Assembly (NCBI GenBank): GCA_013812695.1 | Contig: JACCSZ010000219.1 | Location: forward strand, 1-38,723 | DNA length: 38,723 nucleotides | Direction of reading: 5' to 3' | Origin: Gemmatimonadales bacterium | Lineage (GTDB): Bacteria; Gemmatimonadota; Gemmatimonadetes; Gemmatimonadales; GWC2-71-9 | Shown: in pieces, positions 326 through 28,714 of the stretch | Numbering within the stretch: position 1 is the stretch's first letter | Layout of the letters: every line of letters begins with the position of its first letter | Notes under the pieces: model-generated | The model's input: the letters and a program-made list of their open reading frames with translations, nothing else | Database searches by the model: none | Told to the model about the DNA's origin: nothing | Program-made: the position numbers and the translations under genes

Positions 326-332
326 CGCGGGG

Positions 333-6505: not shown

Positions 6506-6536
6506 TGCGCTTTCCTGGTTGGGCTCGGGTGCTGTA

Positions 6537-6614
6537 TTCACCACGAAGGCACGAAGGACACGAAAACCATTCCGCACGCGGCCCCCCTCGTGGCCTTGGT
6601 GCCTTGGTGGTGAA
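6537..6614. repeat. Imperfect inverted repeat between nuoG and nuoF
   Basis: The left arm (6537-6563) and right arm (6588-6614) are 27 bases each and match as inverted copies at 24 of 27 positions. Each arm contains a short direct repeat (ACGAAGG or CCTTGGTG units). Translated on the plus strand, the left arm gives HHEGTKDTK, a string I recall from spurious ORFs over a dispersed non-coding repeat in many soil and aquatic bacteria. It fills the only sizeable gap in the second half of the nuo operon and could form a hairpin in the nuo transcript. Assignment to a dispersed family is from memory, not a search. Confidence 0.7.
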
Positions 6615-6627
6615 AGAGCATCGGCAC

Positions 6628-7935: not shown

Positions 7936-8459
7936 TACGGGAACCTCTGCAGGATGCCCGCGACCTTGTCGGGGGTCACGTCCTCGATGAAGTCGTCGTC
8001 GACCATGATCGGCGTGGGAAAGCCGCAGGCGCCCAGGCACTCGACCTCGATGACCGTGAACCGGTCGTCGGGACTGGTGGCCCCCAGTTCGACGCAGCCG
8101 GTGGCCGCGAGCAGTGCCTTCACCACATCCTCCGCACCGCAGATGTTGCACGGTGACGTGGTGCAGACCTGAATGAAGTGGCGGCCCACTGGATGGGTGT
8201 GGTACATGGTGTAGAACGTGACCACGCCCTTCACGTAGGCCGGGGTCAGGTCCAGCGCTTCGGCCACTTCGCCGATGTCCGTCTCCGAGATCCAGCCCCT
8301 GACCTCCTGGACCATCCAGAGCGCGGGCAGCAGGCATGCCTGCTTGGTCGGATAGCGGGCGAACAGCTCCTCCAGTTTCGTTCGCGTCTCGCCCACGAAC
8401 ACCGGATCCTGCGCGGCCGGCGTGGCGCCGTGGCTTCCGTGCGCCTGGTGCGAGGTCAT
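7935..8459 (-). CDS. nuoE: NADH-quinone oxidoreductase subunit E
   Basis: This is a 174-residue thioredoxin-like subunit carrying the N1a [2Fe-2S] cluster. Ligands are C99 and C104 (VCTTSPC) and C141 and C145 (ECLGACG). A helical N-terminal domain precedes them, with the family-typical LPALWMVQE and PAYVKGVVTFYTMYHTHP. The ATG at 8459 overlaps the nuoD stop in an ATGA arrangement. The polar, His/Ala-rich first 20 residues are less conserved. Confidence 0.97.
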   Translation of the reverse strand: MTSHQAHGSHGATPAAQDPVFVGETRTKLEELFARYPTKQACLLPALWMVQEVRGWISETDIGEVAEALDLTPAYVKGVVTFYTMYHTHPVGRHFIQVCTTSPCNICGAEDVVKALLAATGCVELGATSPDDRFTVIEVECLGACGFPTPIMVDDDFIEDVTPDKVAGILQRFP

Positions 8460-9748: not shown

Positions 9749-10362
9749 TTCAGGAATCCCCGCTCGCCCCGCGCCAGCCGCTCCCGCATGTCCGCGGGCA
9801 GCTCGTCATACGCCTCGGCGATCGACAACTCTTCCATGGAGTAGTGCGCTTCCGGATTGGCGGCCAGCGCCTGCCGCGTCTGCTCCGCGCGGCTGAAGTG
9901 CCCGCGCAACGGGAAATCCTTCCGGAGCGGAAACCCCTCGGCATAGGTCTCCCACATCAGGATCCGCCGCAGGTCCGGGTGTCCCACGAAGGTGATGCCG
10001 AACATGTCGTACACCTCGCGCTCCAGCCAGTCGGCCCCGCGCCACAGGTCGTAGACGGACCGGACCTCGAGCGGACCGCCCTTGTCGAGCTCGACCTTGA
10101 GGCGCAGGTCGGCCTTGCGGCCGAGCGACCGGAGCTGCCAGACCACCTCGACCGGCCGCTCGGGATCCCGGTACTCGACGGCGGTCACGTCGGTGAGATA
10201 GTCGAACTGCTGGCCGGGCGCGTCCTTGAGCCACGCGAGCACGTCGTGCGCGCGGTCCCGCTCGACGTACACGACCGTGTCGCCGCAGGACACCAGGTGG
10301 CGGGTGACGGCGTCGGCGAACTGGGCGCGGAGCGCTGCGACCGAGGGAGGGGCGTTGGTCAT
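9745..10362 (-). CDS. nuoC: NADH-quinone oxidoreductase subunit C
   Basis: This is a 205-residue peripheral-arm subunit (30-kDa family). The signature EREVYDMFGI followed by GHPDLRRIL is intact, as is the C-terminal PLRKDFPL. I choose the ATG at 10362 (MTNAPPSVAALRAQF). Longer in-frame readings would run into nuoB and the hairpin-bearing gap, and have no family support. A 67-base space separates it from the nuoB stop, one of the few breaks in the operon. Confidence 0.95.
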   Translation of the reverse strand: MTNAPPSVAALRAQFADAVTRHLVSCGDTVVYVERDRAHDVLAWLKDAPGQQFDYLTDVTAVEYRDPERPVEVVWQLRSLGRKADLRLKVELDKGGPLEVRSVYDLWRGADWLEREVYDMFGITFVGHPDLRRILMWETYAEGFPLRKDFPLRGHFSRAEQTRQALAANPEAHYSMEELSIAEAYDELPADMRERLARGERGFLK

Positions 10363-10399
10363 GCGGCCGCGCCCTGGACACACAGCTGCCGCCGCGCCC

Positions 10400-10434
10400 C
10401 GTGAGGCGTGTGACGCGTGAACGTCTGCCTCACG
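10400..10434. other. Inverted repeat at the nuoB end / nuoB-nuoC gap
   Basis: CGTGAGGC (10400-10407) and GCCTCACG (10427-10434) form a perfect 8-bp inverted repeat around a 19-base loop. The second arm includes the nuoB stop codon. It could form a hairpin in the nuo mRNA just before nuoC. There is no T tract, so a terminator is unlikely; a stability or processing element is possible but unproven. Confidence 0.4.
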
Positions 10435-11059
10435 TGGACCGGGTCTGGTGAACGGAGTTGCCGAACGGCTCCGACAGTTCGTCGACGCGATCGGCAGGCA
10501 GGAACAACCCGGACGGCCCGACCAGCTTTTCGTCGCGGAGCATGTCGTCAGTGATGCTCTCACCCATGATCTTCTTCTGGAGCAAACGGATGCCGTAGAT
10601 GAGCCCTTCCGGCCGCGGCGGGCACCCCGGAACATAGACATCCACGGGGATGATGGTGTCGATCCCCTGCACCATCGAATAGTTGTCGAAGATCCCGCCC
10701 GAGGACGCGCAGGCCCCCATCGAGATCGACCACTTGGGCTGCGGCATCTGGTCCCAGATACGCCGGATCACGGGGGCCAGCTTGAACGGCAGCCGTCCGG
10801 CGCAGATGAGCACGTCCGCCTGGCGGGGTGAGAAGCTCATCCGCTCCATCCCGAACCGAGCGAGGTCGAACCGGCTGGCCGCCGTGGCCATGAACTCGAT
10901 GGCGCAGCAGGCGGTGCCGAACGGCATCGGCCACAGCGAGTTGCTGCGGGCCCAGTTGGTGAGGAAGTCGAGCCGGGTGGTGACCCAGTTGGGCGAGACC
11001 GGCGAGACGGTGGTGCCGTCCCCGCCGCCGAACCCCGTGGCGGGATCGCTCAGTCCCAT
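10430..11059 (-). CDS. nuoB: NADH-quinone oxidoreductase subunit B
   Basis: This is a 209-residue subunit holding the terminal N2 [4Fe-4S] cluster that reduces quinone. The ligands are the tandem C51-C52 (GTACCAIE), C117 ([10 protein letters not shown]) and C146 ([10 protein letters not shown]), all conserved. [12 protein letters not shown] and QMPQPKW are further family markers. The ATG at 11059 lies inside the end of nuoA, a 10-base overlap. Confidence 0.98.
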
Positions 11060-12137: not shown

Positions 12138-14180
12138 ATGCGCCACCTCGCGCTGCTAGCCGCGCTGGCCGCGAGCCCCCTCGCCGCCCAAGAGCCGGAC
12201 ACCAACGCCCCGACCCAGCCGGTGCGTCCGCTCAACCTGCAGCCCGCGCTCAAGCCGCCCATCGCCGACACCGGCATCTTCAGCCCGCTCACGCTGCCGC
12301 CGCCCAGCGAGGTCCGGTCGGCCGGGGGCGCACCCGGGCCGCGCTACTGGCAGCAGCGAGTGGACTACCGGATCCAGGCGACGCTGGATACCGCCGCCCG
12401 CCGGATCGACGCGACGGAGCGGATCCATTACACCAACGCGTCGCCCGACACGCTGCGGTTCGTCTGGCTCCAGCTCGACCAGAACCTGTTCCGATCCGGC
12501 AGCACGGGGTCGCTGCTTTTCCCGGCCGAGAGCCGGTTCGGCGGGGCAGGATTCGAGGGCGGTGTCGACATCGTGTCCTTGAGCCAGTCGCCCGTCCCCG
12601 CTCCTCCCGTCTCGCCTCCCGCACGCCGCCGCCCGCGCGCAGCCGCGCGCCCGGCGCCCGCACGGCCCGAAGACTCGCCCGCGGCACTCACCCACCGGAT
12701 CGACGGCACGATGATGTACGCGGAGCTCGCGCAGCCGCTCGTGCCGGGCGGCGCCACGGTGTTGGACCTGGCCTACCGCTTCAACGTCCCCGAGCACGGT
12801 GCCGACCGAATGGGCCGCGAGGGCAGCCTGTACGAGCTCGCCCAGTGGTATCCGCGCATGGCGGTCTACGACGACGTCCACGGCTGGAATACCGACCAGT
12901 ACCTGGGCCAGGGCGAGTTTTACCTGGAGTATGGTGACGTCGAATACGAGGTCACCCTGCCGGCGGGCTACATCGTGGCGGGCACGGGCACCCTGCAGAA
13001 CGCCGAGCAGGTGCTCACGCCGGCCACGCGGGCCCGGCTGGCGGCGGCACTGCGGTCGGACACCACCATCGCGATCGTCACCGCCGACGAGCTCGCGTCG
13101 GGCGCCGCGCGACCCCGGCGCGACGGCATGCTCACGTGGCGCTTTCGCGCCGAGCGAGTGCGTGATGTCGCGTGGGCGGCCTCGCCCGACTACCAATGGG
13201 ACGCGTCGGGGTGGGAGGGCGTCCTGACCCAGGCGTACTATCGCCCGTCCGCGCGGTCCACCTGGCAGGACGCCGCCGCGATGAGCCGAGCCTCGCTGGT
13301 GGAATTCAGCACCCGGTGGCTCCGCTACCCGTATCCGCAGCTCTCGGCAGTCGAGGGTCCGGTGTCCGGGATGGAATACCCGATGGTCGCCATGGTGGCC
13401 CGCGGTGACGACGCACCGGGTCTGTCTGCGGTGATCGCGCACGAGATTGGCCACATGTGGTTCCCGATGGTGGTGGGCTCCGACGAGCGGCGCCACGCGT
13501 GGATGGACGAAGGCTTCGGCACGTTCATCACTACGTTCGCGGAAGCCGGCGCCTGGAGCCGCGACGGCGGCGAGGCGCGACGCGAGGCAGTGCGCACCGT
13601 GACGTCGCTCGATCAGACGCCGTCGGCGCAGCCGATCATCACCCCGGCCAACCGGTACCGGAGCCACGACAACCTCGTCAGCCTCGCGTACGTGAAGCCA
13701 TCGATCCTGCTCCTCGCGCTCCGCAACAAGATCCTCGGCCCCGGCGTGTTCGACGCCGCGTTCCGGGAATACACGCGGCGGTGGGCGTTCAAGCACCCCC
13801 AGCCGGCCGATTTCTTCCGCACGATGGAGGAAGTGTCGGGGCGCGACCTCGCCTGGTTCTGGCGCGGGTTCTTCCTCTCCACCGCCGCGCTGGACCAGAC
13901 CGTCGAGAGCGTGCGGCAGGAGCCGGACGGCGCCGCCCTCATCACGCTCCGGAATCTGGGCCCCGCCGTGATGCCCGTCGAGCTCGAGCTCGGGTTCGCC
14001 GATGGCACGACGCAGACGGTAGCGCTGCCGGTCGAGATCTGGTACGGCGGGAACCGCTACGTCCACCGGCTCGTGAGCGGTCCGGCGATCGTCCGCGCGC
14101 GCGTGAACCCGGATGGACAATTGCCGGACCTGCTGCCGCTCAACGATGCCTGGTCGCTGGACACGGCAGCCTCGCGCTGA
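12138..14180 (+). CDS. Exported M1-family zinc metallopeptidase (paralog 1)
   Basis: This is a 680-residue gluzincin predicted to be secreted. A Sec-type signal peptide (MRHLALLAALAASPLAAQ) is followed by a Pro-rich linker. The N-terminal beta domain includes DTLRFVWLQLDQNLF. The catalytic domain holds GMEYPM (411-416), in place of the classical GAMEN exopeptidase motif. The zinc site is HEIGH at 435-439, with the third ligand E458 exactly 18 residues later. Residues 150-180 are a low-complexity Ala/Arg/Pro insertion absent from the second copy at 15820-17817. The ATG at 12138 gives the clean signal peptide. Whether it is an aminopeptidase or another peptidase cannot be told from sequence. 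Confidence 0.88.
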   Translation: MRHLALLAALAASPLAAQEPDTNAPTQPVRPLNLQPALKPPIADTGIFSPLTLPPPSEVRSAGGAPGPRYWQQRVDYRIQATLDTAARRIDATERIHYTNASPDTLRFVWLQLDQNLFRSGSTGSLLFPAESRFGGAGFEGGVDIVSLSQSPVPAPPVSPPARRRPRAAARPAPARPEDSPAALTHRIDGTMMYAELAQPLVPGGATVLDLAYRFNVPEHGADRMGREGSLYELAQWYPRMAVYDDVHGWNTDQYLGQGEFYLEYGDVEYEVTLPAGYIVAGTGTLQNAEQVLTPATRARLAAALRSDTTIAIVTADELASGAARPRRDGMLTWRFRAERVRDVAWAASPDYQWDASGWEGVLTQAYYRPSARSTWQDAAAMSRASLVEFSTRWLRYPYPQLSAVEGPVSGMEYPMVAMVARGDDAPGLSAVIAHEIGHMWFPMVVGSDERRHAWMDEGFGTFITTFAEAGAWSRDGGEARREAVRTVTSLDQTPSAQPIITPANRYRSHDNLVSLAYVKPSILLLALRNKILGPGVFDAAFREYTRRWAFKHPQPADFFRTMEEVSGRDLAWFWRGFFLSTAALDQTVESVRQEPDGAALITLRNLGPAVMPVELELGFADGTTQTVALPVEIWYGGNRYVHRLVSGPAIVRARVNPDGQLPDLLPLNDAWSLDTAASR

Positions 14181-14296
14181 TGGATCGACTGGCCCCGTCG
14201 GGCCGTTCCGGGGCCGTGCCCGCGCCAGGCGCTCTTCCCGAGGCCTCCGACGGCCGATAGATTCTTCCGCCTCGCTCGCATCTCCCGGGGGCCGTT

Positions 14297-15757
14297 GTGT
14301 CACTGCCGGACTACCTGCTCGATCTGCCTGCCGAGGAAGCCGCCCGTCTGATCGCCCTCGGGCTGCTCGACCGAACGGCGGACGCGGCACGGCGCCTTGC
14401 CGATTCGACCGACCCGATGGCCCTGCACGACTTTCGAGTCGCCACGCGCCGGCTCCGAAGCGGGCTGGAGGCCTATCGCCCGGAGATCGACGGGAGCGTG
14501 TCGCGAGCGAGTCGTCGCCGCCTTCGTCGCCTGGCGCGCGCCACGCGCCGGAGCCGGGACTTCGAGGTTCACCTGCAGTGGGAGCGCGCACAGGACGCCG
14601 TCCTCACCGAACGGCAGCGCACGGGGCTGCGCTGGCACCTCGAGCGACTCGAGGCCCGCCGCCACCGCGCCGACCGGCGCCTCGGCGTGCTGGTGGCGCG
14701 CCGCTTCGCTCGTTTCGAGCGGCGTCTCCGCCGGCGGCTCGAGACCTACCGCCTCCACATCGAGCGCGATCCCACTCGTCGGCGGCACGAGGCGGCTGCC
14801 GTGCTCGGGCGGCGCCTTTGCAAGTTCGGCGGCGACCTCGAATGCCGGCTGGCCGCCATGCGAACGATGGCCGACGACGCGGCCGCGCGGCGCGCCCGGA
14901 TCGCCGCCAAGCGACTGCGGTATCTGCTCGAGCCCATCCGCGGTGAGGTCGACGGCGTCGAGCCGCTGATCGTGAGGCTGCGAGATCTGCAGGACGCGCT
15001 CGGCGAGCTCCACGACAGCCAGACCCATTGGGTCGAGCTCTCCGGCGAGGTCGAGAAAGCCGGGCGCGAGCATGCGCGGCGGCTCGAGGGCGCGCTTCGC
15101 GATGGCGGCGAACGCGGGCCCGAGAGCGCCGACGCAGGCGACGATCCCCGGCCAGGACTGCTCGCGCTGCTCGAGCGGCTCGACGATCGCGAGGCCGAGG
15201 CCTTCGCCCGACTGCGCGCGGACTGGCTGGCGGGTGCCGCGGATAGCTTCTTCGAGGCCGTGGGAGCAGTCGGGAAGCGGGTCGCCCACCGCCCTTCATG
15301 CGTAGCCGAGATCGAGCGGCGATTCCTGCTCCGGCGCATGCCCGCCTCCGCCCAGGCGTTCGCCTTTCAGGCAATCGAGCAGGGCTGGCTTCCCGGCAGG
15401 CGCGTCGTCGAGCGCATCCGTCTGCTGCGGCGGCCAGACGTCCCGATCACCTACCATTCCAGCAAGTGCGCCACCGGGGGCCGCTCGATGGCGGTCGGGG
15501 GCGAAGTGGATCTTCAGTTGTTCGAGCAGATCTGGCCGCTCACCTCCGGCAGGCGGGTGGTGAAACGCCGGCACGTGATGTCAGACTATGGAGTGCAGTG
15601 GGCAATCGACCAGTTCCTCGACCGCGATCTCGTTCTGGCCGAAGTAGCACCGCCGGCGGAAGGCGTCGAGGTGATTCTGCCCGAGTGGCTCCAGCCATAC
15701 GTCGTCCGAGAGGTGACCGGCGAGGGTGCGTACACGAGCCGGGCCTTGGCGCGATAG
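14297..15757 (+). CDS. CHAD domain protein with C-terminal CYTH-like domain
   Basis: This is a 486-residue, very Arg-rich cytosolic protein with no signal peptide. Residues about 5-300 are a CHAD domain: helical, with the paired conserved histidine/arginine segments MALHDFRVATRRLRSGLEAY and IAAKRLRYLLEPI. CHAD domains bind polyphosphate. From residue 338 a CYTH-like tunnel domain follows: EIERRF in place of ExExK, then VERIRLLR, SSKCATGG, VVKRRHV, WAIDQFL and AEVA. That order is the reverse of E. coli YgiF (CYTH then CHAD). The start is GTG at 14297. It lies between two paralogous M1 peptidase genes. Triphosphatase activity is uncertain because the key lysine is arginine here. Confidence 0.8.
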   Translation: MSLPDYLLDLPAEEAARLIALGLLDRTADAARRLADSTDPMALHDFRVATRRLRSGLEAYRPEIDGSVSRASRRRLRRLARATRRSRDFEVHLQWERAQDAVLTERQRTGLRWHLERLEARRHRADRRLGVLVARRFARFERRLRRRLETYRLHIERDPTRRRHEAAAVLGRRLCKFGGDLECRLAAMRTMADDAAARRARIAAKRLRYLLEPIRGEVDGVEPLIVRLRDLQDALGELHDSQTHWVELSGEVEKAGREHARRLEGALRDGGERGPESADAGDDPRPGLLALLERLDDREAEAFARLRADWLAGAADSFFEAVGAVGKRVAHRPSCVAEIERRFLLRRMPASAQAFAFQAIEQGWLPGRRVVERIRLLRRPDVPITYHSSKCATGGRSMAVGGEVDLQLFEQIWPLTSGRRVVKRRHVMSDYGVQWAIDQFLDRDLVLAEVAPPAEGVEVILPEWLQPYVVREVTGEGAYTSRALAR

Positions 15758-15819
15758 GGCATGCAGGGACGAGCTGCTGCTTCCGCCCCCCGTTCGACAT
15801 CTTGCTGGAGGGTGCCACC

Positions 15820-17817
15820 GTGCGCGTGAGCTCCGCTTCGCTGCTCTGCTGGCTGCTGGCCGGCCCCTTGGCGGCCCAGGACACCTCCGCATCCGGCCGA
15901 CCAGGCCCCGAGGCACGATTTCGCCGACTCGACCTTCCCGCTCCGACCGCCCTCCGGAGCGCCAACGGCGCGCCCGGCCCCGCCTATTGGCAGCAGCGCG
16001 CCGACTACGTGATCCGCGCCACGCTTGACACCGCGATCCGGTCGGTGCGCGGTGAAGAGCGCATTACGTACAGCAACAATTCGCCGGACACCCTTCGGTT
16101 CGTCTGGCTGCAGCTCGACCAGAACCTGTTCAACAGCGACAGCCGCGGGTTCCGCGTCTTCGGACAGGATCCGCGCTTCGGCACCAAGGGCGCCGAGGTG
16201 TCGGTGCGGCTGCTCAAGGTCGGCGAGCCGGCGGTACCGCGCGCTCGCGGACGGGCGGCCGCGCCGGCGGCGGCACTGCCGTACGTCGTCAACGGGACCC
16301 TCCTGCGGATCGACCTCGCGCGCCCGCTCCCGCCCGGCGGACGGCAGATCCTGGAGCTGGAGTGGTCGTTCCCGTTCGGCGCCAACAGCAACCGGATGGG
16401 TCTGGAGGATATCGACGGCGCGACCATCTACGAAGTGGCGCAGTGGTACCCGCGGATGGCGGTGTACGACGATGTGCGCGGCTGGAACACCGAACAGTAT
16501 ATGGGCCAGGGCGAGTTTTACCTCGAGTACGGCAGCTTCGACGTGAGCCTGACCGTGCCGGCCGACATGCTCGTCGCCGCCACCGGCACGCTCCGGAATC
16601 CGGACGAGGTCCTGACCGCGGCACAGCGCGCGCGGTTGGCGCGGGCACGCACGAGCGCGGAGACGGTGGTCATCCGCGGCAAGAACGAGATCGGCAGCTC
16701 TGACTCGCGGCCGCCAACGCAGGATCCGTCCCTTACCTGGCGGTTCACCGCCGACAGCGTCCGCGACTTCGCCTGGGCCGCGGCCCGGCACTTCATCTGG
16801 GACGCGGTCGGCGTGAACGGCGGCAAGACGCTGGCGATGAGCTTCTACCCGCCCAGCGCCGAACCGCAGTGGAAGGACGCGACGCAGTACGCCAAGACCG
16901 CCATCGAGTACTACTCCACGCAGTGGTCACCCTACCCGTATCCGTACGCCAGCAACGTGAACGGGATCGAGGGTGGCATGGAGTACCCGATGATCGTCTT
17001 CTGCCGGAACCGCACGGACCCGCACGCGCTGTACAGCGTGACCGACCACGAGTTCGGCCATACCTGGTTCCCCATGGTGGTGGGCAACAACGAGCGACTG
17101 CACGGCTGGATGGACGAGGGGTTCAACAGCTTCATGAACCACTACAGCTTTCCGCGGAAGTTTCCCGACGCCCCACTGCCGTCATCCCGCGGCGTCCAGG
17201 AGACTTATCTCAAGAACGCCGTGTCGGGCGACGAACAGCGTATCATGTCGCCCGCGGACCGGATGCGCTCCAACGAGAACTGGCGGCAGGCGCTGTACAA
17301 CAAACCGGCGGTCGGGCTCGTGCTGCTCCGGGATCAGATCACCTCGCCCGAGCGGTTCGACCCGGTGTTCCGCGAATATATCCGCCGGTGGTCGTACAAG
17401 CATCCGGCCCCGGCTGATTTCTTCCGCACCATGGAGGACGGGCTCGGCGAGGACCTGAGCTGGTTCTGGCGCTCGTGGTTCTACACGACCGAGCGGCTCG
17501 ACCAGGCCGTCGACTCGGTGGCAATCTCGGACTCGGCGGGCGTGATCTCACGGGTGTACTTGCGGAACGCCGGAGCGATGCCGATGCCGGTGGAACTCGC
17601 GCTGCTCATGGACGACGGGACTACACAGCGGCTTCGGCTGCCTGTGGAGATCTGGGGGCTGGGCGACCGGTACACGGCACTCGTGCCTGGGCCGCGGAAG
17701 GTGAGCGGGGTGATCATCGATGCGGAGGGCCTGTATCCGGACGTCGAGCGGGCGAACAACCGATGGCCCGCGGCCGGAGCGCCATCGAAGCCGGCGCGCG
17801 CGTCAGGGAGGAGATAG
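15820..17817 (+). CDS. Exported M1-family zinc metallopeptidase (paralog 2)
   Basis: This is a 665-residue paralog of the product of 12138-14180. The two share DTLRFVWLQLDQNLF, WYPRMAVYDD and GQGEFYLEYG. The zinc site is HEFGH at 410-414 with E433 eighteen residues on; GMEYPM at 386-391 replaces GAMEN. A signal peptide (MRVSSASLLCWLLAGPLAAQ) follows a GTG start at 15820, with GGAG a few bases upstream; no ATG gives a signal peptide. A Tyr/Pro-rich stretch SPYPYPYASN precedes the active site. It probably acts in the periplasm or at the cell surface on peptides; the substrate is unknown. Confidence 0.88.
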   Translation: MRVSSASLLCWLLAGPLAAQDTSASGRPGPEARFRRLDLPAPTALRSANGAPGPAYWQQRADYVIRATLDTAIRSVRGEERITYSNNSPDTLRFVWLQLDQNLFNSDSRGFRVFGQDPRFGTKGAEVSVRLLKVGEPAVPRARGRAAAPAAALPYVVNGTLLRIDLARPLPPGGRQILELEWSFPFGANSNRMGLEDIDGATIYEVAQWYPRMAVYDDVRGWNTEQYMGQGEFYLEYGSFDVSLTVPADMLVAATGTLRNPDEVLTAAQRARLARARTSAETVVIRGKNEIGSSDSRPPTQDPSLTWRFTADSVRDFAWAAARHFIWDAVGVNGGKTLAMSFYPPSAEPQWKDATQYAKTAIEYYSTQWSPYPYPYASNVNGIEGGMEYPMIVFCRNRTDPHALYSVTDHEFGHTWFPMVVGNNERLHGWMDEGFNSFMNHYSFPRKFPDAPLPSSRGVQETYLKNAVSGDEQRIMSPADRMRSNENWRQALYNKPAVGLVLLRDQITSPERFDPVFREYIRRWSYKHPAPADFFRTMEDGLGEDLSWFWRSWFYTTERLDQAVDSVAISDSAGVISRVYLRNAGAMPMPVELALLMDDGTTQRLRLPVEIWGLGDRYTALVPGPRKVSGVIIDAEGLYPDVERANNRWPAAGAPSKPARASGRR

Positions 17818-17887: not shown

Positions 17888-19072
17888 CTACGGCACGTCG
17901 AGCTGCCACAGCCCGCTGAGCATGTCGATCGCATAGAGCGATCCGCCCGAGAGCTGCACCCCCCACGTGAACGTATTCCCCTCTCCACCCGGACGAATCT
18001 GCGAGATCAAGCGGCTCGAGAGATCGCCCGCCAGCGTCCCCGAGACGTCGAGGGCTACCACGCCGCCGTCGTAGTACGCGGCATACAGAATCTGCCGCTG
18101 CTCGTCCATCCAGAAGTTGTGCGTGCCGGCGTTCTCCAGGCGAAAGAACGCGACCTCGCGGGGCCGCGCCAGGTCCGAGACATCCACGACGTGAATGTCG
18201 CCGCTGGACCGCGAACCCACGACGCCCGCGCCCTCCTGCCCGAGGAACAGGTACCGCTGCTCGCCGCGCACGGGATTGTGGAACCACCAGCCGTTGTGCA
18301 CCGCCACTCCGCCGGGCACGGCTCTGTCCGACGTGACCAGGCGGCTCACCTCCTGGGGAGACGAGGGCGACCCACCTTCGATGCCGTTGCCCACGTCGTA
18401 GACGATCACCCCTGTGTTCCAGGCGAACACGAACGCCAGCCCGTCGCGTACATAGGTATCGTGGATGCCGTACGCCGGCGGGATCGGCACGGTGGCCACC
18501 GCACTGACGGCGGCGGGGTCGGTGATGTCGAAGATGACGAGCGCGGGGCCGGCCGGATTGCGGGCGGCGAACACGTACCGGCTCCCGCCGATCTCCGCGA
18601 TCGTGGCGGTGTGAATGCCCTCGGCCACGTGGACACTGTCCCGAAACGCGGGCCGCCGCGGATCGGTCAGGTCGTACACATACAGGCCGGCGCCCGCGCC
18701 ACCCTCCGCCCCGAACACCAGGGTGCCACCGTCATCGCTGACCTGGACGTCGCTCACGGTCGCGATGCCCGGCACCATCACGGAGTCCGCCAGCACCGGC
18801 GCGCCGCTCGCATCGAGCGACCAGACGTTGACCACGTTGCCGGGAACGCCGCCCCGAGGCACGCGGCCCCATGTCCCGGTGTAGGCGTAGGCGCCGTGCA
18901 CCCACAGGTCCGAGCTGTACCGGTCCGGCACATTGTTGCCGCCGGCGACGATGGCGAAATCGGACGGCGGGGGCGGCTGCGTGGGTCCGCCGCCCCCGCC
19001 GTCGCCACCTCCGCAGGCGGCAAGCGCGAATGCCGCGGCGAGCGCGGGCAGCGAGAGCCATCGCCAAGGCAT
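17888..19072 (-). CDS. LVIVD-repeat beta-propeller lipoprotein
   Basis: This is a 394-residue predicted lipoprotein. The N-terminal hydrophobic signal ends in ALAAC with the lipidated cysteine at C20, followed by a Gly/Pro linker. The rest is a series of about 45-residue repeats with cores such as LYVYDLTDPRRP, LVIFDITDPAAV, IHVVDVSDLARP and VVALDVSG, typical of LVIVD propeller repeats. I chose the ATG at 19072, with GGTGAG 10 bases upstream. A GTG at 19087 that overlaps the preceding stop (GTGA) is the alternative and adds five residues. As the last gene after sdhB and a barrel gene it is probably co-transcribed with them. Function is unknown. Confidence 0.82.
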   Translation of the reverse strand: MPWRWLSLPALAAAFALAACGGGDGGGGGPTQPPPPSDFAIVAGGNNVPDRYSSDLWVHGAYAYTGTWGRVPRGGVPGNVVNVWSLDASGAPVLADSVMVPGIATVSDVQVSDDGGTLVFGAEGGAGAGLYVYDLTDPRRPAFRDSVHVAEGIHTATIAEIGGSRYVFAARNPAGPALVIFDITDPAAVSAVATVPIPPAYGIHDTYVRDGLAFVFAWNTGVIVYDVGNGIEGGSPSSPQEVSRLVTSDRAVPGGVAVHNGWWFHNPVRGEQRYLFLGQEGAGVVGSRSSGDIHVVDVSDLARPREVAFFRLENAGTHNFWMDEQRQILYAAYYDGGVVALDVSGTLAGDLSSRLISQIRPGGEGNTFTWGVQLSGGSLYAIDMLSGLWQLDVP

Positions 19073-19083
19073 GTGGGCGTTGC

Positions 19084-20325
19084 TCACCGGTGCGTCATTT
19101 CTTGGTGCTCGGGTCTCGCCATGTCGGTCTCCGTTTCCAGCACGCCGTAGCGCCCCATCCGATGCAGCGCCGCGCCGGCGCTGACGCGCACGCCGAGCGC
19201 GAGCGACCAGATGTGGTTCCGGCCATACAGGCTCGTCACGTCGAAGAGTCCCCCGCCCACCTTGGCGATCCGGGCATATCCAACTTGCACCAGGGGCCGG
19301 ATCTCGAACGCCGGCCGCCGGATCGCGGTGACTTCGTACCCAGCCGTGTGCGTCGTCCATCGTGACACCCCGATGATCGAATTCTCGAGGTGTGGCCGGA
19401 GCGAGCGGAAGCGGGCGACCCGTTCCTCCTCGGGCCGCTCGGTCCGTTCGAAGCGGTACTGGAGACGATGCGGGCGCCTGGTCCATGCACCTTCGAGGAG
19501 CGCGCTGCGAAACACGAAGAAGCCGCTGGCTTCCGACGTCCGGGCCCACTCCAGCATGAGGTAGACCGGGTCCTTGCCCAGCGGGCGGTCCCAGCGGGCG
19601 GCCACGCTCCACTTGCCCTGGGCGGGGCCCGCGCCCGGCCGATGCTCGGGCGAGTGGACGTGCGCGTGCGATGCCTGCACGGTCAGGCCGCGTATCAGCG
19701 TTCCGGAGACGCGCACGCTTCGGGAGTCCCCGAACCTCCCCCCGATCCTCGGCCACTGCCCCGGACGTTCCGGCTCGTCGCCGTTGAATACCCCCGCCTC
19801 GACGGTCACCGGCCCCGTGCGGAAGGCCGCGATCGCCACCGCGCGCTCGAGGATCTGGGCGAGGTGGTGATTGACGGGGTATCCCAGAAACGGCCGTACC
19901 ATGGGATCGTCGGTACCGAACGGAGCAAAGCCCTTGCCGGCGCTGAGCGACACGCGTGCGACGCCGTCGTGCCTTCCGAGCACATCGTCTGCGCTGAGCA
20001 TCAACTCGTGCAGGTAGGTGTGCGGATGGCGCCGGTCGACGAACCCTTCGCCCCAGTCGCCCGGCGTCAGCTCGCCCCCAGGGATCGTGGCGCCTTCGAG
20101 ATTGAGGACGCCCGTGAGGCGGAGCCGGCCCGGGCCGCGCGCGTGCAGGTGGAGGATGGGCTGGACGACTCGTACCTCACCCAGCGCGCCGCCCCCCGGC
20201 ACCGGCTCGGACCGCTCGAACGCCAGCACCGCATGTGCTCCCACGCGGACCGACGCGGGCTCCCCCTGGGCGGACGTACCTACAGGAGCCGACGCCATCA
20301 GGGCGGCCAGTGCGGTCCGGGCCAT
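19084..20325 (-). CDS. Predicted outer-membrane beta-barrel protein
   Basis: This is a 413-residue exported protein that I do not recognise. A signal peptide (MARTALAALMASAPVGTSAQ) is followed by alternating polar/apolar strands ending in aromatic residues, as in outer-membrane barrels, for example VSLSAGKGFAPFGTDDP, VTVEAGVFNGD and WSLALGVRVSAGAAL. It contains no cofactor motif. The C-terminal region is hydrophilic, without the usual terminal Phe. The ATG at 20325 lies 11 bases after the sdhB stop and the gene ends against the LVIVD lipoprotein gene, so all three look like one unit. A porin-like role is an inference from the strand pattern only. Confidence 0.65.
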   Translation of the reverse strand: MARTALAALMASAPVGTSAQGEPASVRVGAHAVLAFERSEPVPGGGALGEVRVVQPILHLHARGPGRLRLTGVLNLEGATIPGGELTPGDWGEGFVDRRHPHTYLHELMLSADDVLGRHDGVARVSLSAGKGFAPFGTDDPMVRPFLGYPVNHHLAQILERAVAIAAFRTGPVTVEAGVFNGDEPERPGQWPRIGGRFGDSRSVRVSGTLIRGLTVQASHAHVHSPEHRPGAGPAQGKWSVAARWDRPLGKDPVYLMLEWARTSEASGFFVFRSALLEGAWTRRPHRLQYRFERTERPEEERVARFRSLRPHLENSIIGVSRWTTHTAGYEVTAIRRPAFEIRPLVQVGYARIAKVGGGLFDVTSLYGRNHIWSLALGVRVSAGAALHRMGRYGVLETETDMARPEHQEMTHR

Positions 20326-20336
20326 GCCGGGACTCG

Positions 20337-21103
20337 TCAGTCGGACTCTGACACCACCGCGCGCACGGGCGCCACCGCGGCCCGGAGGTAATCCCGATTC
20401 ATCCGGGTGATGGTATCGATGCTGATCAGTTTGGGACACGCTTCCTGGCATTCGCCGTACAGCGTGCAGCCCCCGAACCCCTCGATATCCATCTGCTCCA
20501 CCATGCGCCGCGCCCGCAGCCCCCGCTCGGGTTGGCCCTGCGGCAGCAGGCCGAGGTGCGTGATCTTGGCCGCCGTGAAGAGCGAGGCCGAGCCGTTGGG
20601 ACAGGCGGCCACGCAGGCCCCGCAGCCGATGCACTGCGCCGCGTCCATGGCGGTATCCACCTCGTCCTTCGCGATCAGCGTCGCGTTGCCGTCGATCGCG
20701 CTGCCCGTCGGCGCGCTGATGTAGCCGCCGGCCGCGATAATCCGGTCGAACGCCTCGCGGCTCACGACCAGGTCCCGCAGGATGGGGAAGGCGCGGGAGC
20801 GCCAGGGCTCGACGGAGATTTCGCGGCCGTCCGCAAAGCTCCGCATGTGGAGCTGGCAAGTGGCGGTACCCTTGTTCGGACCGTGCGCCACACCGTTGAT
20901 CATCAGGCTGCACGAGCCGCAGATGCCCTCCCGGCAGTCGTGGTCGAAGGCGATCGGCACCTCCCCGGCCGCCATCAGGCGCTCGTTCACCACATCGAGC
21001 ATCTCCAGGAACGACGCGTCCGGGCTGATGTCGTTGGCCTCGTAGCGCACCATGCCGCCGGGGGCGCTGGGCCCCGCCTGACGCCAGACCTGGAGCGTGA
21101 CGT

Positions 21104-21107
<4 letters not shown>
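20337..21107 (-). CDS. sdhB: Succinate dehydrogenase / fumarate reductase iron-sulfur subunit
   Basis: This is a 256-residue electron-transfer subunit of complex II. [2Fe-2S] ligands are C58, C63, C66 and C84. The ferredoxin-like part has C159-C162-C165-C169 ([13 protein letters not shown]) and C214-C220-C224 ([13 protein letters not shown]), carrying the [4Fe-4S] and [3Fe-4S] clusters. The start is GTG at 21107, overlapping the sdhA stop as GTGA; no ATG fits the family N-terminus (VTLQVWRQ). The sequence resembles the SdhB/FrdB type paired with a single b558 anchor rather than the E. coli SdhB type. Confidence 0.95.
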
Positions 21108-23017
<1,910 letters not shown>

Positions 23018-23141: not shown

Positions 23142-23801
23142 TCACCGAATCACCCCCGCGTACACCGCCAGGGGAATCACCGTGAATCCCGCCCACACGA
23201 TCAGGGAGAGCGCCACCGCCAATTGCCGCCGGAGGGGGCGCGGCGACGGCTGGCTCACGCCGAGACTCCGTCCGCTGCTCCAGAGCCCGTGGTACAGGTG
23301 GAGGCCCACCGCCACCAGCGCGAGCTCGTAGAATGCTACCACGAGCAGGTTCGCGAACCCCGCCACCACGTTGTGGTAGGGGTCGCCCTCGACGAACGAG
23401 GTGTGGACAATACCGACCGTGAAATGGAGGACGTGGTACACGATGAACACCAGAATCAACACGCCGCCCCACCGGATCGAGCGTGACGCCAGGGTCGACA
23501 CCTGCGGCCGGCGCCCTCCGGCATACCCCACGGGCCGTGCCACCTGACTGCGCCGGGTGAGCTGTACCGCCGCCACGATGTGGACGACCACGGCCGCGAG
23601 GAGGGCCAGCCGGGCGACCCATAATGCTCCGCCCGTCCCGTGCAGGAGCCGGCTGTACAAGTTGATCTTCTCCGGGCCCTGAAAGACGAGCAGGTTGGCG
23701 AGCACGTGGGTGACCAGGTACGCGACCAGGAGCAGCCCGCTCACGGCCATGACCGCTTTCTTCCCGACCGAAGACTTCCAGAGCGCCTGCACCCGGTTCA
23801 T
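23142..23801 (-). CDS. sdhC: Succinate dehydrogenase cytochrome b558 membrane anchor
   Basis: This is a 219-residue integral membrane subunit with about five helices. It carries VTHVLANLLVFQGPEKIN, VVHIVAAVQLTRRSQVARP, VYHVLHFTVGIVHTSF and GLHLYHGLWSSGRSLG. The four helix-borne histidines in TH, VVHI, HVLH and LHLYHG are the expected ligands of two b haems in the single-anchor (b558) type. No sdhD is present or needed. The ATG at 23801 is 13 bases after the mdh stop. Quinone is likely menaquinone in this type, an inference. Confidence 0.94.
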   Translation of the reverse strand: MNRVQALWKSSVGKKAVMAVSGLLLVAYLVTHVLANLLVFQGPEKINLYSRLLHGTGGALWVARLALLAAVVVHIVAAVQLTRRSQVARPVGYAGGRRPQVSTLASRSIRWGGVLILVFIVYHVLHFTVGIVHTSFVEGDPYHNVVAGFANLLVVAFYELALVAVGLHLYHGLWSSGRSLGVSQPSPRPLRRQLAVALSLIVWAGFTVIPLAVYAGVIR

Positions 23802-23814
23802 GGATACTCCCCGA

Positions 23815-24747
23815 TCAGCCGGCGTCGACGACGGCCTGGGTTGCCCGCACCGCCTCGGCCGACTGCGCCAGCTCGGCCCGCTCGGCATCCGTGAGCTCGA
23901 TCTCGACGATCCGCTCCAGACCCGTCCGCCCGAGCTTGCACGGCACCCCGCAGAACACGTCGCGGAGGCCGAACTCTCCTTGTAACCACGCCGAGCACGG
24001 AAGGATCCGGCGTTTGTCGAGCGCGATCGCCTCGACCATCTGCACCGCCGCGGCGCTGGGGGCGTAGTACGCCGAGCCCGTCTTGAGATACGACACGATC
24101 TCGGCGCCGCCGTTGCGGGTTCGGTCGAGAATGGCGTCGAGCCGGTCGCGTGCGAGGAGCTGGCTCACCGGGATCCCCGAGACCGTCGTGTAGGACACCA
24201 ATGGAACCATGGTGTCACCGTGGCCGCCGAGCACCATCGCCTGGATGTCGTCGACCGACACGGCCATGGCCTCGGCGAGGAACATCCGGTAGCGTGCGGT
24301 GTCGAGGACCCCGGCCATGCCGATAACCCGCTCGCGCGGAAACCCGCTTGCCTTCATGGCCACGTAGCACATGACGTCGAGCGGGTTGGATACCACGATG
24401 ATGATCGAGGCCGGGGCTACGCGCGCGATCTCCTTCGCCACCGAGCGGACGATCCCGGCGTTCGTCTTCACCAGGTCGTCGCGGCTCATCCCGGGCTTCC
24501 GCGCGATGCCCGCGGTCACGAGGAACAGCTCGGCGCCGGCGGCCTCGTCGTAGCCGTTCGTGCCGACGATGCGGGTGTCGAACCCCTCGATCGGGCCGGA
24601 CTGCCACTGGTCGAGGGCCTTGCCCTGCGGCACGCCTTCGACCACGTCGATCATCACGACGGTACGGGCCAGACTCTTCTCGGCCAGCCGTTGTGCCGCG
24701 GTCGCGCCCACGTTTCCGGCCCCGACGACGGCCACTTTTCCCAGCAT
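23815..24747 (-). CDS. mdh: Malate dehydrogenase (NAD, LDH-like type)
   Basis: This is a 310-residue enzyme interconverting malate and oxaloacetate. The Rossmann motif is GAGNVGAT (9-16), with D34 indicating NAD preference. Substrate arginines are R83, R89 and R153. N121 lies in VVSNPLDV, and the catalytic pair is D150 and H176 ([10 protein letters not shown]). R83 rather than Gln in the [12 protein letters not shown] loop favours malate over lactate. It is first in mdh-sdhCAB, so the two successive TCA steps from succinate (via fumarate) and malate are co-expressed; fumarase is not here. Confidence 0.96.
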
Positions 24748-24906: not shown

Positions 24907-25389
24907 TCACTGCGCTGCCTCCAACCCTGCCGGTAGCGCCACGCCGAGCTGCCGGAGCCCCTCGTACAGCACGACGCTCACCGCGTTGGCGAGGTTGAGG
25001 CTGCGCACCTCACCAGGCATTGGAATCCGGAAGCAGCGCTCGGGATGCTTCTCGAGAATCCGCGTGGGCATGCCCTCCGTTTCGCTCCCGAACACCAGCA
25101 CTCCGCGCTCCCGGAACCGCGCGTCCCGATAGTCGTTGCCCGCGTTCGCCGAGAAGTACAGGCAGCGGTCACGGCTGATGGCGTCGCGGAATTCGAACCA
25201 GTCCGGGTGCACCCAGAGGTCCACCTTGTCCCAGTAGTCGAGCCCCGCGCGCTTCACCTCTCGCGCGTCGAGTGAGAAGCCCAGCGGCTCGATCAGGTGC
25301 AGCGGCGTGTCGGTGGCCGCGCACAGGCGGGCGATGTTGCCGGTGTTCGGCGGGATCTGCGGTTGGATCAGCGCGACGTGGAGGCCCAT
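24907..25389 (-). CDS. trmL: tRNA (cytidine/uridine-34-2'-O)-methyltransferase, SPOUT family
   Basis: This is a 160-residue SPOUT methyltransferase that 2'-O-methylates the wobble base of tRNA-Leu isoacceptors. The family strings NTGNIARLCA, LHLIEPLGFSLD, AGLDYWDKV, FGSETEGMPTRIL and SLNLANAVSVVLYE are all present, including the knot that binds SAM. Length matches E. coli TrmL (157). The ATG at 25389 shares its A with the moaA stop codon (TGATG), so translation is likely coupled to moaA although the two pathways are unrelated. Confidence 0.94.
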   Translation of the reverse strand: MGLHVALIQPQIPPNTGNIARLCAATDTPLHLIEPLGFSLDAREVKRAGLDYWDKVDLWVHPDWFEFRDAISRDRCLYFSANAGNDYRDARFRERGVLVFGSETEGMPTRILEKHPERCFRIPMPGEVRSLNLANAVSVVLYEGLRQLGVALPAGLEAAQ

Positions 25390-26408
25390 CACCCGCCGCG
25401 CGTGTGCATCTCGCGCCGCGGATCCGCGCGCAGGCTGTCGATCTGGTGGAGGATGCCACGGTCGGGAAGCGCCGCCCGGACCTCGGCGCCGCGATCGGTA
25501 CGCGAGCTCCAGGTGTCCCGGATGCGGCCGGCGATCTCCTCGTCCGAGGCGCCGGTGCGGAGCAGCTCGCGGAGGTCGAGCCCGCGCTCACCGTACAGAC
25601 ACAGCAGAAATGTGCCGTCCGCGGTGAGGCGCGCTCGGTCGCAGGTGCGGCAGAACGGCGCCGTGGTCGAAGCGATCACGCCGAACGTGCTGCCGTCGGC
25701 CAGACGAAATCGCTCGGCGGGCGCCCAGCCGCTCTGGTGCAACTCCGTCACCGGGCCGTGCTCGGCGGCAATGCTCGCAAGGATTTCCTGCTGCGAGACC
25801 ACCTTGCGCTGATCCCAGTCCGTCGCGCCACCCACGTCCATGTACTCGATGAACCGGACTTCCAGTCCCCTGTCCCGTGCAAAGGTGAGCAGGTCGAGAA
25901 CCTCATCATCGTTGTAGCCGCGGATGACCACGGTGTTGAGCTTGACCGAGTCGAATCCCGCGGCGGTGGCGGCGTGAATTCCCGCGAGCACTTCCGCGTG
26001 CCGCGCGCTGCGCGCGAACGCCACCATCCGCTCAGGCTGGAGCGTGTCGATGCTCACCGTCACCCGCCGGAGCCCCGCCTCGCGCAGCGCCTGCGCCGAG
26101 CGTGCGAGGAGAATGCCGTTGGTGGTGAGGGCGAGGTCACGGACGGCCTCGTGCCGGCGCAGCAGCCGGACCAGGGTCGGCAGGGCGTGCCGCAGCAACG
26201 GCTCGCCGCCGGTCAGCCGGATCTTGCGCACTCCGAGGCCGACGAAGATCCCCGCCAGTCGATCGATTTCCTCGAACGTCAGGATCGATTCCCGTGGCAG
26301 CCACACGTACTCCGCCTCCGGCATGCAATACCGGCAGCGCATGTTGCAGCGATCGGTGACCGAGATCCGCAGATTTCGGAGCGGGCGGCCGAGGACGTCG
26401 ACGGTCAT
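25389..26408 (-). CDS. moaA: GTP 3',8-cyclase (molybdenum cofactor synthesis)
   Basis: This is a 339-residue radical-SAM enzyme that starts molybdopterin synthesis by cyclising GTP. The SAM cluster ligands are C21, C25 and C28 (CNMRCRYC). The second, substrate-binding cluster uses C253, C256 and C270 (FCRTCDRARLT). LTGGEPLLR (65-73) is the SAM-binding segment. The C-terminal Gly-Gly needed for activity is present (MHTRGG). The gene overlaps moaE by four bases (ATGA) and trmL by one. The partner moaC is not in this cluster. Confidence 0.96.
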   Translation of the reverse strand: MTVDVLGRPLRNLRISVTDRCNMRCRYCMPEAEYVWLPRESILTFEEIDRLAGIFVGLGVRKIRLTGGEPLLRHALPTLVRLLRRHEAVRDLALTTNGILLARSAQALREAGLRRVTVSIDTLQPERMVAFARSARHAEVLAGIHAATAAGFDSVKLNTVVIRGYNDDEVLDLLTFARDRGLEVRFIEYMDVGGATDWDQRKVVSQQEILASIAAEHGPVTELHQSGWAPAERFRLADGSTFGVIASTTAPFCRTCDRARLTADGTFLLCLYGERGLDLRELLRTGASDEEIAGRIRDTWSSRTDRGAEVRAALPDRGILHQIDSLRADPRREMHTRGG

Positions 26409-26833
26409 TGCACGTGCTGCAGCGTGGCCGTGGGATCGACCCAGGCCACGGTGCCGTCGGCGTAGAACTCACGCTTCCAGACCGGTACGCGCCGCTTGAC
26501 CTCCTCGATGACGTACCGGCAGGCCGCGAACGCCTCCTCGCGGTGAGCGGAGGCGGCCACTACCGCCACCGCGGTGTCGCCGATCGCGAGCGAGCCGACC
26601 CGGTGCCGCAGTGCGACCGCCACGTTCCAGCGCGACTCCGCTTCGGCGGCGATGCGGCCGCATTCAGCTTCAGCCATCGGACCGTACGCCGAATAGTCGA
26701 GCCGGAGCACGGCGCGCCCGCTGTGATGGTTCCTCACCTGACCCAGAAACGAAGCCACTCCGCCGCGGTCGGGCGCGGCTGCGGCCGCCAGCAGCGCGGC
26801 GAGATCGATGGGCCGGTGGGTCAGGAACCCCAC
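26405..26833 (-). CDS. moaE: Molybdopterin synthase catalytic subunit
   Basis: This is a 142-residue large subunit that transfers sulfur from thiocarboxylated MoaD to precursor Z. Family strings include GGVASFLGQVRNH, LDYSAYGPMAE, RVGSLAIGD, AAFAACRYVIEEVK-like helix residues and PVWKREFYADG with the catalytic lysines. The best start is GTG at 26833, two bases after the moaD stop; no ATG exists near it and GFLTHRPIDL is the expected N-terminus. Confidence 0.93.
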   Translation of the reverse strand: MGFLTHRPIDLAALLAAAAAPDRGGVASFLGQVRNHHSGRAVLRLDYSAYGPMAEAECGRIAAEAESRWNVAVALRHRVGSLAIGDTAVAVVAASAHREEAFAACRYVIEEVKRRVPVWKREFYADGTVAWVDPTATLQHVQ

Positions 26834-26835
26834 GA

Positions 26836-27117
26836 CTACCCGCCCGCGAGCGGAGGAAGGATGGCAATCTCGTCGCCATGGACGACCGGCTCTTCCCGGT
26901 CGGCATGAGCGAGGTTGCGAGCGCACAGCGGCTTGGCGGGCAGCTGGTCCCCGCCCGGGAGGCGCCGGAGCTGATCGAGCACGGTACCGATCGAGGCCGG
27001 CGCCGAGAGCGTCAGCTCCCTGCGCTCGAAGCCCAGACGCTCCGCGTAACTCGCGAAGAGCAGCACGTGCACCGTGACGGTGGATGGGGCGGCGACAGGC
27101 ATGACGGAAGTTACCAT
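26836..27117 (-). CDS. moaD: Molybdopterin synthase sulfur carrier subunit
   Basis: This is a 93-residue ubiquitin-like sulfur carrier. The family features are VTVHVLLFASYAERLG at the N-terminus and the C-terminal DEIAILPPLAGG, whose terminal Gly-Gly is adenylated and thiocarboxylated. An ATG at 27102 would give 88 residues and is nearly as good a start. It is the first gene of the moaDEA-trmL run. A strong hairpin lies just upstream (27122-27158). Confidence 0.92.
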   Translation of the reverse strand: MVTSVMPVAAPSTVTVHVLLFASYAERLGFERRELTLSAPASIGTVLDQLRRLPGGDQLPAKPLCARNLAHADREEPVVHGDEIAILPPLAGG

Positions 27118-27121
27118 GAAA

Positions 27122-27158
27122 CCGGGCCGCGCCGCGATACGCTCGCGAGGCGGCCCGG
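27122..27158 (-). terminator. Compound GC hairpin between HU gene and moaD
   Basis: CCGGGCCGC (27122-27130) and GCGGCCCGG (27150-27158) form a perfect 9-bp stem. A second 5-bp stem (27133-27137 with 27143-27147) lies inside its loop. On the minus strand it is followed by only TTTC before the moaD ATG at 27117. It may terminate the HU transcript or limit read-through into moa. The short T run makes the call uncertain, and it could instead act as a leader structure of moaD. Confidence 0.45.
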
Positions 27159-27190
27159 CGCTGCGATGGATGCCGTTGTGTGCTGCGGGG

Positions 27191-27520
27191 TCAGAGTCCC
27201 TGGACGGGCTCCGCCTCGGGCTGACCTTCGTCGGCGACGAGGGCCCGCAACTCCTTGCTGGGCTTGAACACTGGGACCGGGCGGGCGGCCACTTCCACCG
27301 GATCGCCGGTGCGCGGATTCCGCGCCATGCGCGTTTTCCGCCTGCGAATCTTGAACGTGCCGAAGCCGCGAACCTCGATGTTATGCTGCTCCTTGAGTGC
27401 GTCCTTCACCGCCTCGAGGAACGCATCCACGACGCGAGCGCAATCCTTCTTGGAGATCATCGGACCAGCGGTCTTGGCAATCGACGCGGTTACCTGTTCG
27501 ACGAGATCGGCCTTGGTCAT
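27191..27520 (-). CDS. HU/IHF-family DNA-binding protein
   Basis: This is a 109-residue nucleoid protein. The N-terminal MTKADLVEQV and the helical half through FLEAVKDALKEQ are followed by IEVRGFGTFKIRRRKTRMARNPRTGDPVEV, where RNPRTG is the DNA-intercalating arm with its conserved proline. PVFKPSKELRALV completes the fold. The last 15 or so residues are an acidic tail not usual in the 90-residue HU. Which of HU or IHF-alpha/beta it is cannot be decided from sequence alone. It begins 63 bases after the carA stop. Confidence 0.92.
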   Translation of the reverse strand: MTKADLVEQVTASIAKTAGPMISKKDCARVVDAFLEAVKDALKEQHNIEVRGFGTFKIRRRKTRMARNPRTGDPVEVAARPVPVFKPSKELRALVADEGQPEAEPVQGL

Positions 27521-27583
27521 GCGTCCCCCAGACAGGTTACGGGCAGCGGAGCGGACGGGCCTCCTAACGCCGATTCTATGAGC

Positions 27584-28714
27584 TTAAGTGTTGTCTGTCA
27601 AGGGGTTGGCGTTCGCGGCGAGGGCGCCTCGGCCAATCGACGCCATGAATTCGGCGAAGTGGGGAAAGGCGTCGTGGGGGCCGGGCGCAGCCTCCGGGTG
27701 ATACTGCACGGCGAACAACGGCAGCTCCCTGTGCCGAACGCCTTCGATCGTACCGTCGTTCAGGTTGAGGTGGGTCACCTCGAGCGCGGGCGCGCCCGGA
27801 ACGCCGTCCACGTCGCCAACCACCGCGAAACCATGGTTTTGCGTGGTGATGAGCACGTGTCCCGCGCGGACGTCTCGCACGGGATGATTTCCGCCCCGAT
27901 GGCCATAGGACAGCTTGGCGGTAGCGCCCCCGAACGCGAGACCCACGAGCTGGTGGCCCAGGCAGATGCCGAAGGTCGGGAGGCCGCCCTCCGCCAGCTC
28001 GCGGACGTTCGCCAGGGCGTACTCGACGGCCACCGGATCGCCGGGCCCGTTCGAAAGGAAGAGCCCATCAGGGTTTAGCCTGCGCACCATCGCGGACGGA
28101 AACTCCGCGGGCACTACGGTCACGCGGCAACCGGCCTGGACCAGCATGCGGACGATGTTTCGCTTGATGCCGTAGTCGTACGCCACGACGTGGGGCCCGC
28201 GGCCCTCGCTGTACGGCTCGCGAATGGTGGCGCGGGAGGCTAGGTCGAGCCCGTCCATCGACGGCGACGCGAGCAGTCGCGCCGTCAGCTCGTCGCCCGG
28301 CTGGCGCCCCTCGGCGATGACGCCGCGCATCGCGCCGCGCGCGCGCAGGTGGCGAGTGAGCCGACGCGTGTCGATGCCTTCGATGACCGGCACTGCGGCC
28401 TCGGCGAGCCATTCGTCCAGGCTGCCGGTCGCGCGCCAGTTCGAGGGATGGCGGCTCAACTCGCGCACGACTACGCCGGTCACCTGCGGTCGCGCCGACT
28501 CCATGTCCTCCACGTTCACACCGTAGTTGCCGATCATCGGCGCCGTCATCACGACGATCTGGCCGAGGTAGCTCGGATCGGTGAACGTCTCCTGATAGCC
28601 CGTGAGGTTGGTGGTGAAGACCACCTCGCCGAAGACCGGCTCGATCGGGCGCGCGGTGGTCCCCGAGAACCAGGCGCCGTCCTCGAGCAACACGAACGCG
28701 GGGCGATCCGTCAT
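27584..28714 (-). CDS. carA: Carbamoyl-phosphate synthase small (glutaminase) subunit
   Basis: This is a 376-residue glutamine amidotransferase subunit that supplies ammonia to CarB for arginine and pyrimidine synthesis. The triad is C251 (FGICLGHQ), H339 and E341 (QYHPEA). The N-terminal domain holds [14 protein letters not shown] and [19 protein letters not shown] (221-227) precedes the glutaminase core. carB is not adjacent; an HU gene follows. The ATG at 28714 is 25 bases after the secG stop. Confidence 0.97.

Follow-up and report, generated by a model that had tools for sequence, protein, structure and literature searches.

The operon for malate dehydrogenase and succinate dehydrogenase (complex II) in a Gemmatimonadales bacterium ends in two genes for envelope proteins, which raises the question of what an outer-membrane barrel and a propeller lipoprotein do behind sdhB, and whether their place there says anything about their function. 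All positions of this locus refer to the window, i.e., the whole stretch of 38,723 nucleotides that has been analysed. The initial annotation had described a beta-barrel protein and an LVIVD-repeat lipoprotein downstream of mdh-sdhCAB with gaps of about 11 bases or less, and its coordinates and spacing have been confirmed, with the genes assigned as follows:

23815-24744, minus strand: mdh, which opens the cluster and encodes malate dehydrogenase (NCBIfam MalateDH_bact TIGR01763, 457 bits, cut-off 352)
23142-23810, minus strand: sdhC, b558-type cytochrome b subunit (TIGR02046, 167 bits, cut-off 96; PF01127)
21104-23017, minus strand: sdhA, flavoprotein (PF00890 and PF02910)
20337-21107, minus strand: sdhB, iron-sulfur subunit, overlapping the sdhA stop (PF13085 and PF13183)
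19084-20325, minus strand: barrel protein P0001, 413 aa, signal peptide and predicted 16-strand outer-membrane barrel (AlphaFold2, Foldseek)
17888-19087, minus strand: lipoprotein P0002, 399 aa, lipobox, Gly/Pro-rich linker and seven-blade LVIVD propeller (PF08309, AlphaFold2)

The ATG of the barrel gene lies 11 bp past the sdhB stop, and the GTG start of the lipoprotein gene overlaps the TGA stop of the barrel gene by 4 bp. Judged by this short gap and overlap, both genes are probably co-transcribed with mdh-sdhCAB in the family of the window. The order mdh-sdhCAB-barrel-lipoprotein has been found repeated in 23 other genomes of this family, so that the arrangement is not due to chance. Neither protein is a component of complex II, in agreement with the initial annotation, and adjacency to sdh is restricted to this one family (f1). 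With a probability of roughly 0.4 we favour the reading that the two genes form a co-inherited outer-membrane pair, consisting of a porin-like channel and a propeller lipoprotein that would use metal to hydrolyse a small ester, and that this pair has been inserted behind sdh. Two unannotated genes of a respiratory operon would hereby become a defined and testable pair of a channel and a predicted metalloenzyme.

Distribution of the pair and of its linkage to sdh

The linkage has been surveyed in 298 Gemmatimonadota genomes with barrel and propeller profiles and with sdhB as queries, and about 80 neighbourhoods have been clustered. As the 42-column Pfam LVIVD model missed the lipoprotein gene when its own genome was searched, it has been replaced by full-length alignments in the searches for the propeller. 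sdhB is present in 288 of the 298 genomes and the barrel family, distant paralogues included, in 140. Within f1, the coordinates place the barrel next to sdhB in 24 of the 33 genomes with a clear barrel (G066 and G119, which are split by contig ends, are counted among the 24). These linked genomes belong to nine genera (g1, g3, g14, g16, g18, g20, g23, g25, and g27) with sdhB identities of 64-86%, and the genes that follow the pair vary among them. The other nine family barrels lie away from sdh, namely those of G014, G015, G036, G076, and G238 and four of genus g10, a genus in which the lipoprotein directly follows sdhB and any barrel is found elsewhere (G037, G041, G109, G133; G168 has no barrel). 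Outside the family, adjacency to sdh has been found in none of about 32 genomes compared, and every genome checked in the sister families f2, f4, and f6 has the pair at a distance from sdh. The initial annotation had named separation from sdh in relatives as the finding that would speak against its proposal; such separation is seen at the level of the phylum, whereas most genera of this family do not show it.

The association between the two genes themselves is broader. An LVIVD lipoprotein lies directly downstream on the same strand in 61 of 82 barrels, and among the 21 barrels that have no such neighbour one is cut by a contig end and 20 are truly unpaired, including 15 of a divergent subfamily (bits up to ∼306) and the four g10 barrels. 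Away from sdh the pair is surrounded by unrelated genes, among them a Bmp-type (nucleoside-type) ABC transporter, an S41 peptidase, MatE, MoeA, a TonB receptor, and Hydantoinase_B, and the survey of neighbours for a clue to the substrate has yielded no recurring partner other than sdh. Since the pair is both steadier and more widespread than its linkage to sdh, the pair has to be regarded as the conserved unit and sdh as a later, derived address; read from gene order and pair conservation, the barrel-lipoprotein pair is older than its sdh link. The proposed conserved envelope module has therefore held with regard to the pair, and to its contiguity with sdh inside f1, while a general tie to respiration or dicarboxylate use is not supported, given its position beside unrelated genes, far from sdh, in the sister families. 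An operon linkage confined to one family can mislead about function.

Regarding the linkage itself, the pair may have come to lie behind sdh by accident and may use the sdh promoter with no functional link to respiration. This account covers the sdh link only, is compatible with the favoured reading, and appears quite possible, at somewhat less than an even chance: the linkage is found in a single family, inside which several reversals are seen (G014, G015, G036, G076, and G238), whereas its retention over nine genera, in which different genes follow the pair, speaks for a shared expression that has apparently been kept. Under the favoured reading of a channel with a hydrolase, insertion behind mdh-sdhCAB would provide steady expression under respiration, and by its place behind sdhB the pair would be made together with complex II.

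A predicted metal site in the propeller lipoprotein

P0002 carries the lipobox FALAAC after an N-terminal hydrophobic segment, and a lipobox is visible in nearly all relatives. One LVIVD match is obtained with PF08309 (25.3 bits against a curated cut-off of 20.2), and the match to the choice-of-anchor B family TIGR04312 is partial, with scores between 39 and 50 bits (39.1 for P0002) where the cut-off is 100. We know of no choice-of-anchor B or LVIVD protein described as paired with a barrel. The AlphaFold2 model (pLDDT 82, pTM 0.83) predicts 28 strands (7 × 4) that form a closed seven-blade propeller. Among PDB structures, Foldseek places the Sphingobium TCM1 phosphotriesterase (5hrm) first, with E 2.8e-10 and TM 0.66/0.54, and numerous further propellers of seven blades score only slightly worse. 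A search of PDB sequences with a profile built from 44 relatives has likewise ranked 5hrm and 5ioj, both representing this phosphotriesterase or haloalkylphosphorus hydrolase, first with E-values of 6.7e-4 and 1.4e-3. Direct comparison of the propeller and the phosphotriesterase by hhalign has given E-values of 1.2e-4 to 4e-4 over ∼110-130 columns at a probability of only 35-55%. Taking into account this low probability, the modest TM and the closeness of other propellers, the fold match alone is no proof of shared chemistry. The Cu/Zn-SOD propeller lactonase of Deinococcus had also been considered and has been dropped, as it has six blades, uses calcium and belongs to a different fold group.

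According to the title of a structure paper cited in PMC11656708, the TCM1 phosphotriesterase has a binuclear metal centre in a seven-bladed propeller. Across 66 sequences of P0002 and its relatives, permuted ones included, H159, H209, H264, and H323 never vary, and the same holds for E128, E285, and D113 across 44. The metal ligands of the phosphotriesterase, which we take to be E201, H258, H389, E407, and H475, are matched at precisely these positions by Glu or His of the corresponding kind in its near-identical homologue P0003. Three free MAFFT alignments have all equated H159 with H258, H209 with H317, and H323 with H475 of P0003, while H264 and E285 miss H389 and E407 by 4 and 7 residues. 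With the blades counted by eye, each of the two proteins has a histidine on the innermost strand of blades 3, 4, 5, and 6, and the blade-5 His is followed by a Glu 18 residues on in the phosphotriesterase (E407) and 21 residues on in P0002 (E285). E201 has no exact counterpart in P0002, in which E128 is found in the same blade on another strand. Further differences are the identity of ∼14% over the fold, the missing blade-7 His, the lipoprotein nature of P0002 and its partner barrel, and the larger size of the phosphotriesterase (∼580 aa), which has long insertions. We regard a metal site common to both proteins as likely, not proven, and the match of the histidines by blade as a prediction.

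In the favoured reading, the propeller would hold a metal site of four His and Glu in its central channel, as does the TCM1 enzyme, and would most likely hydrolyse, with the help of metal, a small ester that is probably charged. Anchored to the outer membrane, this hydrolase would stand beside, and may touch, the channel that passes its substrate or its product. LVIVD propellers are widespread and mostly have no assigned function, and an active-site pattern like that of a known phosphotriesterase suggests what to assay. Many lipoproteins of the family show, by eye, an Ig-like N-terminal segment, in collinear and permuted forms alike. As a side observation, several longer LVIVD-type propeller ORFs (∼500-800 aa) have been found per genome in many genomes (G225, G271, class families f5 and f7), and the propeller family has therefore expanded in Gemmatimonadota.

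The barrel, its distant relatives and competing roles

No Pfam or NCBIfam family has matched P0001 in profile searches, and searches of Pfam, NCBIfam, and PDB sequences with single sequences have given nothing useful. The structure prediction called for by the initial annotation is consistent with a barrel, at moderate confidence: the AlphaFold2 model, built with eight homologues, shows a signal helix followed by 16 long strands (pLDDT 65, pTM 0.69). Foldseek relates it to 16-strand general and anion-selective porins (Omp32, OprP/OprO, OmpF) with E-values near 1e-10; the TM reaches only 0.47-0.52, and sequence similarity to these porins is lacking (best E 0.7). The barrel is further set apart from them by unusual conserved loops, with the invariant motifs DRRHPHTxxHE, PFGxDDPMxRP, NHHxxQxxERA, and FxGDEPx, and by a C-terminal RxGRY tail. 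This invariant tail, in the region of the barrel C terminus (window 19100-19170), lies beyond the last predicted strand, in place of the terminal aromatic residue usual for outer-membrane proteins. If the barrel is porin-like as modelled, the loops with conserved His, Asp, and Arg probably lie along its pore or around the pore mouth.

Weak matches to the barrel profile have revealed a second family, an unnamed group of outer-membrane proteins (e.g., WP_052628285.1) covered by no Pfam family, with the motif order DRQHPHD, HR, HHWQDATHI, and FNGREPDE (general form DRxHPHD / HH / FNGxEPDE). These proteins share motif order and length with the barrel and align to its profile positions ∼57-300; they are only ∼30% identical to it, or 1e-5 to 1e-18 by profile. 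One of them adjoins a CopC-CopD fusion in Gemmatimonadota (L119, 4927-8051), and two copies on Sphingobium plasmids (L133 and L134, around 7000) belong to an island that also encodes MerR, glutaredoxin, and DUF305 and, in L134, a heavy-metal P-type ATPase. The barrel of the pair retains the His-rich motifs of these copper-island relatives; their Met/His-rich ends and their CopC-CopD or MerR/DUF305 neighbours distinguish them from the pair. The kinship supports a role of the pore for a metal or a charged solute and keeps alive a rival in which the barrel passes or binds a copper-like transition metal and the propeller is a non-catalytic lipoprotein that binds or scavenges metal. We consider this metal-handling role unlikely. 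The shared motifs beside copper genes and the four invariant histidines of the propeller are consistent with it; the relatives are distant, the Met-rich segments are absent from the pair's barrel, no LVIVD gene adjoins the copper-island copies that have been checked, and no metal genes adjoin the pair in the neighbourhoods examined.

The idea of the initial annotation, a module for the uptake of succinate or malate that is functionally tied to complex II and has the propeller as its surface ligand-binding part, draws on the contiguity with mdh-sdhCAB in the majority of family genomes with a clear barrel, where later genes vary, on the g10 lipoproteins that remain behind sdhB without the barrel, and on malate-bound Omp32, which stands at rank 4 of the barrel's Foldseek list. 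As OmpF, PorB, OprP, and many others score alike, so that Omp32 is one among dozens of equal matches, the last point is uninformative on dicarboxylates. The separation from sdh in all checked genomes of the sister families and the conserved channel residues of the propeller, which are His and Glu of metal type and not the Arg or Lys expected of a dicarboxylate site, leave dicarboxylate uptake with no specific support and make the module improbable. In BtuB/BtuG, a barrel is combined with a seven-blade propeller lipoprotein, and BtuG caps BtuB. The broad architecture of the pair is alike, with the gene of a seven-blade propeller lipoprotein directly after that of the barrel, and the propeller might in such a complex be a non-enzymatic surface lid that binds its ligand tightly and hands it to the barrel. 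This also seems improbable to us, because the pair's barrel is modelled with 16 strands and has no TonB Plug domain in Pfam searches, barrel and propeller are separated in g10, the divergent barrel subfamily has no adjoining propeller, and conservation is centred on a residue set of metal type. The porin-like channel with a metal-dependent propeller hydrolase stays our preferred reading.

Permuted propellers and the surroundings of the locus

In 21 relatives, all from the family of the window, the order of the propeller is swapped, with the part corresponding to query 191-398 ahead of that corresponding to query 41-190 in one open frame and a short linker connecting the former C terminus to the former N terminus:

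L005, 9265-10734: permuted propeller gene
L006, 9578-11089: permuted propeller gene
L007, 909-2393: permuted propeller gene
L039, L042-L043, L046, L048-L057, L059, L061, L063, L065: further permuted loci

Tandem LVIVD genes have been rejected as the cause of the swapped halves, since the frames are single and continuous and contain one copy of each half. The propeller is collinear in the genus of the window, in g14 and g27, and in all outgroup families, and the permuted form is therefore derived. The breakpoint, between blades 3 and 4, is common to all permuted genes and thus suggests a single origin. A single clean origin has nevertheless been rejected on the tree of propeller and barrel, which requires about four changes of form and excludes one clade of permuted genes (p-AU 0.01). 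As close relatives carry the orthologous predicted enzyme in either collinear or permuted form, they offer natural material for studies on the closure and evolution of propellers. The pair is a variation on known LVIVD propeller lipoproteins and porin-like barrels with an unusual permutation history and, as far as conserved residues and models indicate, a good lead to its chemistry. That it represents a new enzyme-channel system, in which a porin-like barrel is joined by a binuclear-metal propeller hydrolase at the surface or in the periplasm, permuted at one breakpoint with the metal site kept and later incorporated into the sdh operon in a single family, is a tentative proposal that we hold to be unlikely.

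Several features of the surroundings have been noted by eye. Downstream of the sdh operon, at a distance of ∼7 kb, a run of nuo (complex I) genes occupies 322-11059 on the minus strand, which brings the genes of complex I and complex II into one 25-kb stretch of the window. Two adjacent M1-like metallopeptidase genes (12200-17817, plus strand) are convergent with the sdh operon, and a CHAD-like ORF (14297-15757) lies between them. Upstream of mdh, Moco genes (moaA and moaE) are located at 24907-28714 on the minus strand; the sdh-free barrel of G133 (L062) adjoins this same cluster, located there on the opposite strand, and a MoeA gene lies upstream of the barrel-lipoprotein pair in L039 and L050. 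The recurrence of Moco genes near mdh or the pair may be due to chance.
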